A stretch of 64,000 bases of DNA from Seongchinamella unica (GTDB lineage: Bacteria > Pseudomonadota > Gammaproteobacteria > Pseudomonadales > Halieaceae): NCBI RefSeq assembly GCF_004354085.1, contig NZ_SMSE01000003.1:372001-436000 (forward strand), in the 5' to 3' direction. Shown here piece by piece: positions 50,178 to 57,704 of the stretch. The position numbers and the translations under genes were made by a program. Numbering within the stretch: the stretch's first letter is position 1; every line of letters starts with the position of its first letter. Below the pieces are notes generated by a model. It searched no databases. It saw nothing but the letters and a program-made list of their open reading frames with translations, and was not told where the DNA came from.

Positions 50178-52283
50178 TTACCGGTTCCTTGAGATAATGC
50201 CCTCGGCGACCGCAGACGGTGCCTCGGCATACTTGCAGAACTCCATGGTGTAGGTGGCTCGACCCTGGGTGGCGCTGCGCAGGTCGGTGGCATAGCCAAA
50301 CATCTCAGCCAGCGGAACCTCGGCAGTGACCACCTTGCCGGAAGGATTTTCAGCCATCCCGCCAATCAGGCCGCGGCGGCGGTTGAGGTCGCCAACCACG
50401 TCACCCATGTTTTCTTCCGGGGTGACCACTTCCACCGACATGATGGGCTCGAGCAGCACGGCACCGCCCTGTTCGGCGAGCTTCTTGGTGGCCATGCTGG
50501 CGGCAATTTTAAACGCCATTTCGTTGGAATCAACATCGTGGAACGAGCCATCGTACAGGGTGGCCTTCAATCCCAACAGCGGGTAACCGGCGAGCACACC
50601 GTTCTGCATCTGTTCCTCGATACCCTTTTGCACCGCGGGGATGTATTCCCGGGGTACGGCACCGCCAACGATCTCATTGACGAATTCCAGACCCTCGGCG
50701 GAAGCGTCTTCACCCGGCTCGAACTTGATCCAGACATGGCCGTACTGTCCACGGCCGCCGGACTGGCGCACAAACTTGCCCTCAATCTCTGCCGTGTTGC
50801 GGATTGCCTCACGATAGGCCACCTGGGGCTTGCCGATATTGGCCTCCACGCTGAACTCGCGCTTCATCCGGTCCACCAGGATATCCAGGTGCAGTTCACC
50901 CATGCCGGAAATAATCGTCTGCCCGGTTTCCTCATCAGTCTTGACCCGGAAGGACGGGTCTTCCTGGGCCAGCTTGCTGAGGGCAACACCCATTTTTTCC
51001 TGGTCCGGCTTGGAACGCGGCTCCACGGCCACGGAGATCACCGGTTCGGGGAACTCCATGCGCTCCAGCACAATGGGGTTGTCGGGGTCGCACAGGGTGT
51101 CACCGGTGGTGACATCCTTGAGGCCCACCGCCGCAGCGATATCACCTGCGAGGACCTCCTTGATCTCTTCCCGGCTGTTGGAGTGCATCTGTACCATACG
51201 GCCGACGCGCTCCTTCTTCTCCTTGACGGAATTGAAGACTGCGGTGCCGGACTCCAGCCTGCCCGAGTACACCCGGAAAAAGGTCAGGGTGCCAACGAAC
51301 GGATCAGTTGCGATCTTGAAGGCGAGCGCGGCAAAGGGAGCATCGTCGTCTGCTTCCCGGGTGGCGTGGGTCTCGTCCTTGTCCAGCAGGTGGCCATCAA
51401 TGGCCTTCACCTCGGTGGGCGACGGCATGTATTCGATAACCGCATCCAGCATGGCCTGCACGCCCTTGTTCTTGAAAGCGGAGCCGCCGAGCACCGGGAC
51501 GATCTCATTGGCCAGGGTGCGCTTGCGGATGCCGGCCTTGATTTCTTCCTCGCTGAGCTCGATACCCTCGAGGTACTTTTCCATGGTTTCGTCGCTGGCT
51601 TCAGCGGCGTTTTCGACCAGAAACTCGCGCATTTCACTGACTTCGTCGACCATGTCCTCTGGCACTTCAGCGTAGTCGAACGTCATGCCCTGGTCGGCTT
51701 CATTCCACAGAATGGCCTTGTTCTTGATCAGGTCGACCACGCCCCTGAACTCGTCCTCGGAGCCTATGGTCATCTGCAGGGGCACGGGGGCGGCTCCCAG
51801 GCGCTCTTTCAGCTGGTCGACAACCATGCGGAAATCAGCGCCGGCGCGATCCATCTTGTTGACGAATACCATGCGCGGCACTTCGTACTTGTTGGCCTGG
51901 CGCCAGACAGTTTCAGTCTGGGGCTGCACGCCGGACGAACCGCACAGCACCACCACAGCGCCATCGAGCACCCGCAGGGAGCGCTCTACTTCAATGGTGA
52001 AGTCCACGTGCCCGGGAGTGTCGATGATATTGATTCGGTGATCGGGGAACTGGGCATCCATACCCTTCCAGAAACAGGTTGTCGCAGCCGAGGTGATGGT
52101 AATACCACGCTCCTGCTCCTGTTCCATCCAGTCCATGGTTGCGGCGCCATCGTGTACTTCACCTATCTTGTGAGACAGGCCGGTGTAGAACAGAACACGT
52201 TCCGTGGTTGTGGTTTTACCCGCGTCCACGTGGGCGCAGATACCGATATTGCGATACCTGCTGATTGGCGTTTTACGTGCCAC
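50178..52283 (-). CDS. fusA: Elongation factor G (main copy)
   Basis: Translocase GTPase, 701 aa, in the str operon. G1 is [16 protein letters not shown]2 [15 protein letters not shown]3 DTPGHVDF, G4 [10 protein letters not shown]. Domain IV and V features include [40 protein letters not shown] and [10 protein letters not shown]. It lies 36 nt after rpsG. A second, divergent EF-G gene (53572-55656) sits upstream of rpsL on the other strand. Confidence 0.98.
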
Positions 52284-53429: not shown

Positions 53430-53571
53430 GCCGGCACCGATATCAATTTCAGTAGCAGAATGGGACTAAATACCGTTGAAATACCCACCGATAGTGCTCC
53501 CAATAGAAGGCTTTTTGCTGTACTCTAGCGCCCAATTTTTTTGGCCAAACATTAATCAATCGAGAGCAACA

Positions 53572-55656
53572 ATGTCTGATTTATCCCTCTATCGAAATAT
53601 TGGTATTTTCGCCCACGTTGACGCGGGTAAAACCACCACAACCGAGCGTATCCTCAAGCTCACCGGCAAGATCCACAAGACCGGTGAAGTACACGACGGC
53701 CAGGCCACCACGGACTTCATGGAGCAGGAGCAGGAGCGCGGTATTACCATTCAGTCAGCTGCCACCACCTGCTTCTGGAAAGACCACCGCCTCAACATCA
53801 TCGACACCCCTGGACACGTGGACTTCACCGTGGAAGTTTACCGCTCGCTGAAAGTGCTCGACGGCGGCGTGGGCGTATTCTGCGGTTCTGGCGGCGTTGA
53901 GCCCCAGTCCGAGACCAACTGGCGCTATGCCAACGAATCTGAAGTCTCCCGCATCATCTTCGTCAACAAGCTCGACCGCGTGGGTGCCGACTTCTACCGC
54001 GTGGTAAAGCAGGTGGAAGACGTGCTGGGCGCCAACCCGCTGGTCATGGTGCTGCCCATCGGCCGCGAGGACGAGTTCACCGGCGTGGTAGACCTGCTGA
54101 CCCGCAAGGCGCATATCTGGCCTGATCCCAACGACCCGGATAACTACCAGATTGAGGACGCGCCCGAAGATATGGCCGACCTCATTGAAGAGTGGCGCGA
54201 GAAGCTGATTGAAACCGCCGTCGAGCAGGACGACGACCTGATGGAAGCCTATCTGGACGGTAACGAGCCGGCCATTGACGACATCAAGCGCTGCATCCGT
54301 GAAGGCACCCGCAAGCTGGACTTCTTCCCCACCTACTGTGGCTCCGCGTTCAAGGACAAGGGCGTACAACTGGTGCTGGACGCCGTGGTCGACTACCTGC
54401 CCAGCCCCACCGAGGTTGACCCCCAGCCGCTGACCGACGAAGAAGGCGAGCCCACTGGTGAAGTTGCCACTGTATCGGCAGACGAGCCCCTGCGCGCCCT
54501 GGCCTTCAAGATCATGGACGACCGTTTTGGCGCCCTGACCTTCGTGCGTCTCTACTCCGGCAGGCTGAACAAGGGTGACACCATCCTCAACTCCTTCACC
54601 GGCAAAACCGAGCGTATCGGCCGCATGGTGGAAATGCACGCCAACGACCGCAACGAGCTCGACAAGGCCCAGGCCGGCGACATCATCGCCATCGTCGGTA
54701 TGAAAAATGTGCAGACCGGCCACACCCTGTGCGACCCCAAGCACCCCTGCACCCTGGAAGCCATGGTCTTCCCCGACCCGGTTATCTCCATTGCCGTTGC
54801 CCCCAAGGACAAGGGCGGCGCCGAGAAAATGGGCATCGCCATCGGCAAGATGGTGGCCGAGGATCCCTCCTTCCGCGTCGAGACCGACGAGGACTCCGGC
54901 GAGACCATCCTCAAGGGCATGGGCGAACTGCACCTGGATGTGAAGGTGGACATTCTCAAGCGTACCTACGGTGTTGAGCTGGACGTGGGCAAGCCGCAGG
55001 TCGCCTACCGCGAAACCATCACCCAGGAAGTGGACGACTCCTACACCCACAAGAAGCAGTCCGGTGGTTCCGGCCAGTTTGGTAAGATCGACTACCGGAT
55101 CAAGCCCGGCGAGCCCGGCTCCGGCTTCCAGTTCACTTCCACTGTCGTGGGCGGCAACGTGCCCAAGGAGTTCTTCCCGGCTATCGAGAAGGGCTTTGCG
55201 GGAATGATGGCCGAAGGTCCCGTGGCCGGCTTCCCGGTGCTGGATGTCGAGGTCGAGCTGTACGACGGTGGCTTCCACGCCGTTGACTCCTCAGCCATCG
55301 CCTTCGAGCTGGCCGCGAAAGGCGCCTTCCGCCAGTCCATGCCCAAGGCCGGCGCACAGCTGATCGAACCCATCATGAAAGTAGACGTGTTTACCCCAGA
55401 CGACCACGTGGGTGACGTGATCGGTGACCTCAACCGCCGCCGCGGCATGATCAAGGACCAGGACGCCGGCGCCACCGGCGTGCGCATCAAGGCGGACGTA
55501 CCCCTGTCAGAAATGTTCGGCTATATCGGCCACCTGCGCACCATGACCTCTGGTCGCGGCCAGTTCTCCATGGAGTTCTCTCACTACCTGCCCTGCCCGC
55601 AGGCGGTGGCGGAAGAAGTGATCGCTGAAGTGAAAGCGCGCAAGGCCAACGGCTGA
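53572..55656 (+). CDS. fusA2: Second elongation factor G-like GTPase (EF-G2)
   Basis: Product of 694 aa from ATG 53572 ([28 protein letters not shown]). All G motifs are intact: [44 protein letters not shown]. The domain IV loop is [24 protein letters not shown]. It differs from the main copy by a distinct domain II-III region and an Asp/Asn-rich insertion ([19 protein letters not shown]). It runs opposite to the str operon. EF-G2 proteins in other bacteria have been linked to ribosome recycling or to translocation with altered GTPase; which applies here is not known. A bidirectional terminator follows. Confidence 0.93.
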
Positions 55657-55670
55657 GCGCGGCTAACCAC

Positions 55671-55700
55671 AAAAAAGCCGGCCATAAGGCCGGCTTTTTT
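55671..55700. terminator. Bidirectional terminator between fusA2 and the secreted paralogue
   Basis: Six A, GCCGGCC (55677-55683), loop ATAA, GGCCGGC (55688-55694), six T. It serves fusA2 (plus) and the convergent gene at 55724 (minus). Confidence 0.92.
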
Positions 55701-55723
55701 GTGTCCGTTAATCCGTGAGCAGA

Positions 55724-56476
55724 TCAGCGAGTGGTACCCGCCCGGACCAACCGCGCGTCCCAGACGCTGGTTCCACCACAGGAAACGACGGGACCGAGAA
55801 TCTCAGCAGCCTTCTTCCAACCACCACCATTGGTGTACATCTCGGTGGTCAGACCAAGATCCGAATAGTTCTTGAAGGCAATCACCTGCCAGTAGTCGAA
55901 GTCGACGTTGCTACCAAGCCCCGGATAGAAAAGCCAGGACGCCCCCTTGCTGCCCATGCCTTGCATGGCTTCGGACATGGCTTTGTGGGCGCCAAAGGAA
56001 TCATCAAAGCTTTTGCCTTCCTTGTGGGTGCAGGAGGAAAAAATGACGACGCCATTATCCGGCGGCCCATCCGGAGCATTGATCACCGCGGAGCTGGCCA
56101 TTCCATGGCCGATACTGCAGTCGACCACCTCGTTGAAGGCATCCATCAGCTCCGGCGACTGCATGAAGGCATCCATACCCTTGCCGAAATCCGCGCCACT
56201 GGGCCAGGATCCCAGCCAGCCCAGGTCAAACTCCACGCCACTGTGCAGGTTGGGGAACATCAACCAGGCGGAGTAGCCGGAATCGTTCTTGTCCGCCCAT
56301 TTATTGAACCTGGCGTTAACCTTGTCCAGGTCTTCCAGGTCCTTACCGTCCCTGAAGTTACAGGAAAACCACTCCACCGGAACCACCGCGCCGTCGTCCT
56401 GGGCGGTCGCTGCCTGCCCCAAAAGCAGGCTGCAAGCCCCCAGTACTGGTACCACTATCTTCCATAGAAATTTCAT
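55724..56476 (-). CDS. Secreted protein of unknown family, paralogue A
   Basis: A 250-aa protein with signal peptide (MKFLWKIVVPVLGACSLLLGQAATAQ). I do not recognise the family. It is a clear paralogue of the next gene upstream. The two share C-x-F-R-x-GK-x3-DLD near residue 39, a YxAW segment, D-x-GWLG-x-WPS, FNEV-x-DC, S-x-C, SWLFYP, DFDY, AF-x2-YSD-x-G and NGGG. Four cysteines are conserved, suggesting two disulfides in the periplasm or outside the cell. The regular spacing suggests two repeats of an alpha+beta barrel-like or ABM/dabb-like unit, but that is speculation. Expression is downstream of paralogue B with a small hairpin between. Confidence 0.82.
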   Translation of the reverse strand: MKFLWKIVVPVLGACSLLLGQAATAQDDGAVVPVEWFSCNFRDGKDLEDLDKVNARFNKWADKNDSGYSAWLMFPNLHSGVEFDLGWLGSWPSGADFGKGMDAFMQSPELMDAFNEVVDCSIGHGMASSAVINAPDGPPDNGVVIFSSCTHKEGKSFDDSFGAHKAMSEAMQGMGSKGASWLFYPGLGSNVDFDYWQVIAFKNYSDLGLTTEMYTNGGGWKKAAEILGPVVSCGGTSVWDARLVRAGTTR

Positions 56477-56509
56477 ATCCGTTTCCTCTTATCGTTACGG
56501 GTACAGCAG

Positions 56510-56528
56510 GCCCGCCACCATGGCGGGC
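56510..56528 (-). other. Small hairpin between the two secreted paralogues
   Basis: GCCCGCC (56510-56516) and GGCGGGC (56522-56528) with a 5-nt loop, 8 nt past the stop of paralogue B. No T run follows, so it is more likely an mRNA-stability or partial-termination element than a full terminator. Confidence 0.45.
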
Positions 56529-56536
56529 AATTCGGG

Positions 56537-57298
56537 TCAACGCTCGTCGAAGGCGCGTACATTGAGCGCATCGAAGAGGATGGGTGTGGTGCAATCTGAG
56601 ACGGTTTCCAGGGTTTCCTGCGCCACCTGGTAGCCGCCCCCGTTGGAGTACAACTCCAGGGCCGCACCAAAATCAGAATAGCGGTAGAACGCAACCGCAT
56701 GGTAATAGTCGAAGTCGGCGCTTACCGTGCCCATCGTCGGGTAGAACAGCCAGGAGGAGGCCATGGACCCCAGACCGCGCATGTGATTGCCAAACGCGAT
56801 ATGGGCCTGGTAGGCGTCGTCATTGGTTTTACCGTCAAGGAGGGCGCAGCGAGAGATCATCAAAACCCCTTCCTCGGGCGTAGACTCAGCCGCGGTAACC
56901 GGCACCCACAACGCCAGTTCATGGCGGCTGCCGCAGTCCATCACCTCATTGAATTCCCCGGCCAGTTCCTTGCCGGTCGTCATCCACTTTTCCATGCTGA
57001 TACCGAAGGCCTCATTGCTGGGCCATGCGCCCAACCAGCCTATATCGTAGGGAACCGCACTCTGGAACTGGGGAATCAGCGTCCAGGCGGCGTAATTGAA
57101 GTCGTGTTCACTGGCATAATCGCGGAATTTCTCCGAAATCCGATCCAGATCCTTCATGCCCTTTCCCTCGCGGAAAGAGCAGGCCCTGAAATCCACCGGA
57201 GCGGCTTTAACCGGCCCTCCCTGGGCACTGACAGCTTGTCCGTAGCTGAGCATGGCGGCAAATGCAAACGCCACCGAGGCGGCTGGTACCTTGTTCAT
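56537..57298 (-). CDS. Secreted protein of unknown family, paralogue B
   Basis: A 253-aa protein from ATG 57298 with signal peptide (MNKVPAASVAFAFAAMLSYGQAVSAQ). An in-frame extension of 73 codons upstream lacks a secretion signal and is rejected; GGAGG lies upstream of the chosen ATG at a slightly long spacing. It shares with paralogue A the motifs CSFREGK..DLD, DIGWLGAWPS, FNEVMDC, SRC, SSWLFYP, DFDYYHAVAFYRYSDFG and SNGGG, and the same four Cys. Family and function are unknown to me. Together they occupy the gap between rpoC and the second EF-G gene, where most gammaproteobacteria go directly from rpoC to rpsL. Confidence 0.82.
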   Translation of the reverse strand: MNKVPAASVAFAFAAMLSYGQAVSAQGGPVKAAPVDFRACSFREGKGMKDLDRISEKFRDYASEHDFNYAAWTLIPQFQSAVPYDIGWLGAWPSNEAFGISMEKWMTTGKELAGEFNEVMDCGSRHELALWVPVTAAESTPEEGVLMISRCALLDGKTNDDAYQAHIAFGNHMRGLGSMASSWLFYPTMGTVSADFDYYHAVAFYRYSDFGAALELYSNGGGYQVAQETLETVSDCTTPILFDALNVRAFDER

Positions 57299-57644
57299 GG
57301 CAAATCTCTCCCTCCAGGAATATTTCCCCGAGTGGACGTCTCTGCCCCGACACGCTTTTAACCCTAGCCCAGTTTCCCGTTTTTTCAAGCTGCGGGTAAC
57401 CACAGCTGTCAGCGATGTCGGCCTGAGCAACCACTGGTCAAAGCGGTTTGAGCACCGCAGCAAAACCGTGGTAGCCATTTCCGATGAGGAAATGCTGGCC
57501 TGGATTAACGATGACAACTATACCGACCTGGCACCACGACTGGCGGCGCTCGGCTTTGAGGGCTGGATTCCCGACCCGGCCAACCTGCAAGGCCACATGG
57601 CCTTCGCTGCGGGGCCTTGTTTATTGCAGCTGTGGATTCATTAA
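57297..57644 (+). CDS. Possible small protein, hypothetical
   Basis: An open frame of about 115 codons on the plus strand, ending just before the rpoC terminator. The second half (VVAISDEEMLAWINDDNY, then LAPRLAALGFEGWIPDPANLQG) has amino-acid composition and GC3 like a real protein. The start is unclear: ATG 57297 overlaps the start of paralogue B on the other strand and lacks a ribosome site, so a later start is possible. It may also be the remnant of a longer gene. No family recognised. Confidence 0.4.
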   Translation: MANLSLQEYFPEWTSLPRHAFNPSPVSRFFKLRVTTAVSDVGLSNHWSKRFEHRSKTVVAISDEEMLAWINDDNYTDLAPRLAALGFEGWIPDPANLQGHMAFAAGPCLLQLWIH

Positions 57645-57646
57645 AC

Positions 57647-57678
57647 AAAAAAAGGGCGATGGGTTTTACCCATCGCCC
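57647..57678 (-). terminator. Intrinsic terminator of rpoBC
   Basis: Minus strand: GGGCGATGGGT, loop of three, ACCCATCGCCC, then seven T. This 11-bp perfect stem lies 27 nt after the rpoC stop. Confidence 0.95.
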
Positions 57679-57704
57679 CTGGTATCGGGAGGTCAGCGAA
57701 TTGC

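Follow-up and report, generated by a model that had tools for sequence, protein, structure and literature searches.

Two adjacent exported proteins of Seongchinamella unica belong to a new sequence family with a predicted fused dimeric alpha+beta barrel

The paralogous proteins P0001 and P0002 of Seongchinamella unica belong to a genuine exported family that is undescribed in the libraries and papers we searched, and that constitutes a new sequence family inside a known fold. Their structure models are almost certainly fused dimeric alpha+beta barrels, made of two ferredoxin-like domains that arose from one by internal duplication. As for what the proteins do, we lean towards an exported two-domain fused barrel with a disulphide in each domain and a small-molecule pocket that works without a family-wide metal or haem. 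The genes lie in the window, that is, the whole stretch of 64,000 nucleotides that was analysed, together with the following features:

55724..56476, minus strand: P0001, exported two-domain protein of 250 residues (coding sequence including the stop codon)
56537..57298, minus strand: P0002, exported two-domain protein of 253 residues (coding sequence including the stop codon)
56402..56476, minus strand: Sec-type signal peptide of P0001, residues 1-25, ending in ATA before Q (by eye; model pLDDT 53-55 there)
57224..57298, minus strand: Sec-type signal peptide of P0002, residues 1-25, ending in VSA before Q (by eye; low model pLDDT there)
57652..57680, minus strand: intrinsic terminator-like hairpin 3' of rpoC, 13 pairs and a T tail, from the hairpin scan; it separates rpoC from P0002
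About 55671..55702, both strands: bidirectional terminator-like repeat (A-run, GCCGGCC-ATAA-GGCCGGC, T-run), seen by eye and absent from the hairpin-scan list

In a single pairwise comparison the two proteins are 41% identical (98 of 237 positions, E 6e-68). They share, as the first-pass annotation had read from the sequence, the motif pairs CNFRDGK/CSFREGK, DLGWLGSWPS/DIGWLGAWPS and FNEVVDC/FNEVMDC (P0001/P0002), the common motifs SWLFYP, DFDY and NGGG, and four corresponding cysteines, with Cys39, Cys120, Cys149 and Cys233 of P0001 matching Cys40, Cys122, Cys151 and Cys236 of P0002. Export had been claimed as well, and is borne out by the Sec-type signal peptides of both proteins, which were assigned by eye; the residue at the presumed site of cleavage, Ala25, is kept in at least 90% of a 24-sequence family alignment. 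An in-frame TTG farther upstream of P0002 would give an open frame of 326 codons. Between P0002 and its Seongchinamella orthologue we obtained a dN of 0.151 and a dS of 1.47, the latter near saturation, and their ratio of about 0.10 indicates that the gene is under purifying selection, so that the pair looks like real genes. No third copy of the family was detected in the S. unica genome at E up to 1.

The pair does sit, as had been observed, beside core information genes (rpoC, rpsL and EF-G). Two EF-G genes are present in the locus, at 53476-55656 on the plus strand and at 50178-52283 on the minus strand, what we call the second EF-G gene being inverted between rpsL and the P0001/P0002 pair. 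The bidirectional repeat separates P0001 from the EF-G gene that converges with it, and is common to both. Scanning the region for hairpins returned seven terminator-like sites against 4.6 expected by shuffling, and the one after rpoC has the longest stem of them. Since the pair is flanked by this hairpin on one side and by the bidirectional repeat on the other, P0001 and P0002 probably form a two-gene unit of their own. A plus-strand open frame at about 57440-57644, between rpoC and P0002, is protein-like and ends FEGWIPDPANLQGHMAFAAGPCLLQLWIH; when the loci of relatives were compared, it had no match outside its own genome.

Profile searches of Pfam-A and NCBIfam assigned no characterised family to either protein, with no match at E up to 10, and the description of the family as unrecognised stands at this level. 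Pfam scans of 25, 22 and 9 family members gave only rows for single members, at E 0.01 or worse; a scan of six distant members gave no match at E up to 0.1, and 24 members gave none in NCBIfam at E up to 0.01. Searches of PDB sequences by phmmer and hmmsearch at E up to 10, using as queries P0001 alone, family sets and the member at locus L116, found no relative. Rows for ubiquitin (E 0.7-2.6) and APOBEC-2 (47 positions, E 0.011) were discarded as chance, as were a few more that were short and scored low. In viral contigs, pattern scans that detect close relatives only gave no match with one family set and one 19-residue match with a second. No description of the family was found in the literature searched.

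The ABM (PF03992) and NIPSNAP (PF07978) families consist of single ferredoxin-like domains of the type of fold predicted here, and their members are as a rule cytoplasmic. We compared our family with 27 ABM sequences (from 30 ABM loci, three of which were cut by contig ends) and obtained hhalign probabilities of 0.1-0.6%, inside the span of shuffled controls (0.1-1.5%); the ABM profile matches four places in the S. unica genome, none of them at P0001 or P0002. The comparison with NIPSNAP, which involved only four sequences, gave 0.1% twice, 5.2% for domain 2 (E 0.007) and 1.7% for both domains. The last two values exceed those of the shuffled controls, which stay within 1.5% and do not go below E 0.03, yet they are far from significance. 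The chlorite dismutase family PF06778 matched none of 94 genomes of the class, S. unica included, and no chlorite dismutase, HemQ or DyP model is among the Pfam families listed for the 25, 22 and 9 members.

Residues 30-135 and 138-250 of P0001 are one domain present twice, as revealed by hhalign at E 2.2e-13 with 24 sequences. In a wider set, domain 1 and domain 2 align profile to profile at E 1.5e-22, against E 0.03-0.5 for five column-shuffled controls. The domains are located as follows:

56072..56389, minus strand: P0001 domain 1, residues 30-135, ferredoxin-like, with Cys39 and Cys120 (from the profile split and the model)
55727..56065, minus strand: P0001 domain 2, residues 138-250, same fold, with Cys149 and Cys233 and with His164 on helix 157-173 (from the profile split and the model)
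56888..57208, minus strand: P0002 domain 1, residues 31-137, with Cys40 and Cys122 (limits by analogy with P0001)
56540..56881, minus strand: P0002 domain 2, residues 140-253, with Cys151 and Cys236 (limits by analogy with P0001)

The alignment of the two repeats pairs Cys39 with Cys149 and Cys120 with Cys233. The four cysteines picked out by the first-pass annotation match between the paralogues, but they fall two to each repeated domain, an internal duplication that it had overlooked. We also found nine single-domain relatives of about 130-135 residues, each with two Cys and, by eye, a signal peptide, which can be aligned with either domain (E 4e-37 for domain 1, E 5e-23 for domain 2), and which could assemble the barrel as homodimers. 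Several members from small genomes show, by eye, lipobox-like signals. According to PMC4835899, dimeric alpha+beta barrels arise either when two chains dimerise or when a domain is duplicated and fused. One exported family with both single-domain and fused forms provides a case for the origin of fused barrels.

We counted the cysteines in 100 representatives, obtained by reducing 120 sequences at 90% identity; 14 sequences shorter than 170 residues were left out, and a Cys was scored as present if it lay no more than four residues away from the column. All four cysteines occur in 94 representatives, four others are incomplete because of a contig end or a stop, and the remaining two, both from one 1.3-Mb genome, are without Cys39 and Cys120. 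None of the 96 complete representatives has lost just one Cys. The paired loss of Cys39 and Cys120, seen in two cases, fits one disulphide per domain, and we consider it likely that intradomain disulphides join Cys39 to Cys120 and Cys149 to Cys233.

AlphaFold2, with alignments of 24 sequences as input, produced models of P0001 and P0002 with pLDDT of 87.9 and 87.2 and pTM of 0.80 and 0.79, respectively. Both models run twice through the predicted order strand-helix-strand-strand-helix-helix-strand, with a break in the final strand of P0002. Barrel closure is deduced from the fold matches, which cover residues about 27-250, and both models would thereby have the two ferredoxin-like domains and the barrel that define the dimeric alpha+beta barrel superfamily. 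What had been called unrecognised is so in sequence, but the fold is a known one; neither protein is shown to belong to any named family within the superfamily.

The top structural match by Z is 2PGC (Z 18.2/18.0 for P0001/P0002, over 199/203 and 201/206 residues, rmsd 2.8/3.0). This marine-metagenome protein, JCVI_PEP_1096685590403, is a fused two-domain alpha+beta barrel like the models of P0001 and P0002 and is likewise of marine origin, but shares just 6-8% identity with them in the structural alignment, and it was not returned by the sequence searches of the PDB with P0001 and family sets at E up to 10. Another match, the Chlorobium tepidum protein CT0912 (3GN6, Z 14.7/14.5), bears a title that calls it an ORFan and mentions a repeat of ferredoxin-like domains, as in our proteins; its identity to them is 5-7% and its chain has 294-296 residues. 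Sulfur oxygenase reductases (2CB2 and 6QPA, Z 14.9-16.3 against both models) likewise have two ferredoxin-like domains per chain, but their chains measure 307-310 residues against about 225 in mature P0001 and P0002. Further matches are the putative monooxygenases 3F44 and 3MCS (Z 14-15), the anthrone-oxidase-like 5F9P (Z 12.8/12.6), the monooxygenase PenE (Z 11.5/12.1) and, for the P0001 model, ABM-type rows. Six matches at E up to 0.001 came from a viral fold library, headed by an 'antibiotic biosynthesis monooxygenase' of a giant virus (TM 0.55, rmsd 9.8); judged on the models, these have the same fold and are nothing closer.

The family, as judged by profile matches, is concentrated in Halieaceae and rare beyond. 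Although invisible to Pfam-A and NCBIfam, it is matched by its own profile in 96 of 140 Halieaceae genomes (E up to 0.001), and Halieaceae are reported to be abundant in coastal seawaters in PMC10100682. In the order, 21 of 341 genomes match, 10 of them outside Halieaceae, and a single-domain profile matches 20 of 341. In the class the count is 5 of 369 with S. unica included, three of the other four being genomes of 0.9-1.3 Mb, and in the phylum it is 2 of 398, again including S. unica. Those loci that have a named source come from Halieaceae, Woeseiaceae and gammaproteobacterial MAGs. At two loci from genomes of 1.3 and 0.9 Mb (L116 and L117), further small exported proteins with no Pfam match adjoin family members, and some of them look by eye as if they had the same fold.

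The first-pass annotation had pictured a family under duplication. Expansion does occur, mostly in another Halieaceae genus, of small genomes, where two genomes reach up to 11 matches each with fragments counted, but the tree speaks against a recent tandem pair in S. unica. P0002 falls among sequences of Seongchinamella and Pseudohalioglobus (support 98/95 and 100/99); the branch of P0001 is a different one and weakly placed (85/72). Since P0002 has orthologues of its own and P0001 branches separately, the duplication is older than these species. Our 25-sequence alignment was made from 25 of 31 matches, leaving out two with internal stops, three that were partial and one without a locus, and in a few of its rows the chosen starts cut off the signal peptides; for the 24-sequence alignment, one truncated sequence of 23 was dropped. 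The expansion in the small-genome genus includes single-domain genes and tandem pairs (loci L085 and L095). In a relative of Seongchinamella (locus L010), a copy with two internal stops, apparently decayed, lies beside the second EF-G gene.

Of 19 genomes with a match, compared over flanks of up to 1.5 kb, 10 have a family gene next to rpoC, to rpsL/rpsG or to the second EF-G gene; in another set of 20 loci, 7 show such a neighbour. The rpoC-rpsL position is clustered on the tree, only 4 of 500 shuffles being as low, and still requires six changes. In some relatives (L033, L038 and L014) the family gene is found between rpoC and rpsL with no second EF-G gene. High expression, as the neighbourhood might suggest, was considered and rejected: the codon adaptation values of the pair, 0.51 and 0.49, are ordinary. 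The six reference genes on which the scale is based range over 0.58-0.74, and the second EF-G gene, not itself a reference gene, reaches 0.75. We also rejected a function drawn from genomic context. The 80 neighbours in 28 loci gave 84 Pfam families, and among the 25 of these listed there is no recurrent partner, none occurring in more than three members, even with the near-identical loci L082 and L083 inflating the counts. These neighbours are 80 of 120 non-family frames, 40 having been left out by eye as mostly spurious or end-cut, and the gene calls come from a greedy longest-frame choice that sometimes takes an antisense frame.

Twenty-three columns are conserved in at least 70% of the 100 representatives; 13 of them are Cys, Gly or Pro, and the other ten are E35, K45, D49, Y68, A70, W87, H124, F146, A163 and D194. 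For a finer comparison we divided the representatives into a near set (42 members at least 35% identical to P0001) and a far set (58 members). H124 is present in 40 of 42 near and 33 of 58 far members, and a His lies near that place in 80 of the 100 representatives; as a universal catalytic or metal residue it was rejected, the remaining 20 being without such a His. Trp181 is found in all 42 near and 6 of 58 far members, Asp194 in 38 and 44, and Tyr195 in 36 and 5, position 195 of the far set being mostly Phe (44). With regard to the distal Arg of chlorite dismutase-like haem enzymes, residue 245 is Arg in 27 near and 19 far members, and column 237 is Arg in 38 of the far set.

We propose that P0001 and P0002 are exported, probably to the periplasm, and that their two tandem ferredoxin-like domains pack as a barrel on one chain. 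In the oxidising envelope, one disulphide would staple each domain by linking strand 1 with the beginning of strand 4. The cleft that lies between the sheet and the helices would hold a small molecule, probably apolar or aromatic. In the Halieaceae subfamily, the residues lining this cleft would be Trp181, Asp194, Tyr195 and, on helix 3, His164 and Met171, and in the model the face F161-H164-M171 may be directed to the sheet. The protein would bind or convert this molecule with no family-wide metal or haem. The proposal starts from what was computed, namely the internal duplication, the predicted fold, the single-domain relatives and the purifying selection, and the disulphides, the pocket and the role are deduced. 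Given the models, the proteins most likely act in the envelope on a small molecule, which they would bind or convert; we give the pocket itself an even chance, and that the proteins are enzymes rather than binders is a tentative suggestion that we would not favour. Function is here read solely from the fold, and the alpha+beta barrel carries unrelated functions. Moreover, the proposed pocket residues are mostly those of the near set, which makes a chemistry common to the whole family doubtful.

His164 also invites a different reading, in which it would be the axial ligand of a haem or porphyrin protein of the chlorite dismutase, DyP or coproheme decarboxylase kind. It lies on helix 3, the barrel element that bears the proximal haem-ligand His in Cld, DyP, EfeB and HemQ according to Table 2 of PMC4835899. 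These enzymes have the same fused barrel and are among the best Foldseek matches, the putative chlorite dismutase 3DTZ ranking first by E-value for both models (about 2e-8), but by Z they (3DTZ, 5LOQ and 5GT2) reach only about 9-11 against 18 for 2PGC, which to our knowledge is not known as a haem protein. Conservation points both ways, since 37 of 42 near relatives have His164, a residue that just 5 of the 58 far members share and that is not family-wide, and neither P0001 nor P0002 matches Chlor_dismutase or any other Pfam model. Taken together, we regard a haem protein as unlikely. Sulfur oxygenase reductases, for their part, hold a mononuclear iron site in the N-terminal domain, with two His and one Glu as ligands and a catalytic Cys. 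In domain 1 of our family, H124 is the only conserved His at the 60% threshold in the near set, with no second one to make up such a pair.

The stapled barrel might instead be the scaffold of a non-catalytic envelope protein, with a binding or structural task. The origin of the top match 2PGC, which PMC2557142 counts among five structures solved for novel families of the Global Ocean Sampling (marine metagenome), is compatible with this, as are the prevalence of Cys, Gly and Pro among the conserved columns and the ordinary codon adaptation. However, the other ten columns include E35, K45, D49, Y68, W87, H124 and D194, and the strong retention of H164 and W181 in the near set suggests more than a scaffold there, so that we hold this possible but on the improbable side. 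Very unlikely is the Trp/Tyr-rich surface binding glycans or aromatics that the first-pass annotation had put forward, and which our results did not uphold. Trp and Tyr are indeed conserved in the near set (W71 in 36, W87 in 39, W91 in 31 and Y68 in 37 of 42 members, besides W181), and one neighbour, at locus L043, matches Glucosaminidase. Against this, the Trp and Tyr of the motifs are predicted in or beside strands, W181 is mostly lost in the far set, and no glycan-active gene recurs among the 80 neighbours in the 25 of 84 families listed; we know of no use of the alpha+beta barrel fold for glycan recognition. Finally, the place of the genes between rpoC and the str operon, with the adjacency counted above, could suggest envelope proteins tied to translation or transcription. 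This is highly improbable: the proteins carry signal peptides (by eye), a terminator-like hairpin parts their genes from rpoC, codon usage is ordinary, other family members are found in unrelated places, and amino-acid sites change about 25 times faster in P0002 than in rpoC (dN 0.151 against 0.006 in the same species pair). Nothing links P0001 and P0002 to translation.

With its fold and its repeat identified, what was an orphan pair becomes a family open to testing, with disulphides, ligand and haem binding as the points to address. In a broader and unlikely view, the barrel superfamily would have a branch in the envelope, formed by this family, and marine gammaproteobacteria would have diversified it in place of cytoplasmic barrel enzymes. 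Such a branch would be disulphide-stapled, would occur with a single domain, as fused duplicates and as lipoproteins, would have multiplied in the small-genome genus to as many as 11 matches in one genome, and might perform an extracytoplasmic chemistry new for the fold, such as a cofactor-free oxygenation or a lyase reaction on dissolved aromatics or terpenoids. In Woeseiaceae-like loci, a class-V aminotransferase gene is followed by the family gene (L046 by Pfam; L044, L048, L049 and L050 by eye), and a DUF418 membrane protein is encoded downstream at L046 (Pfam) and at L044 and L047 (by eye).
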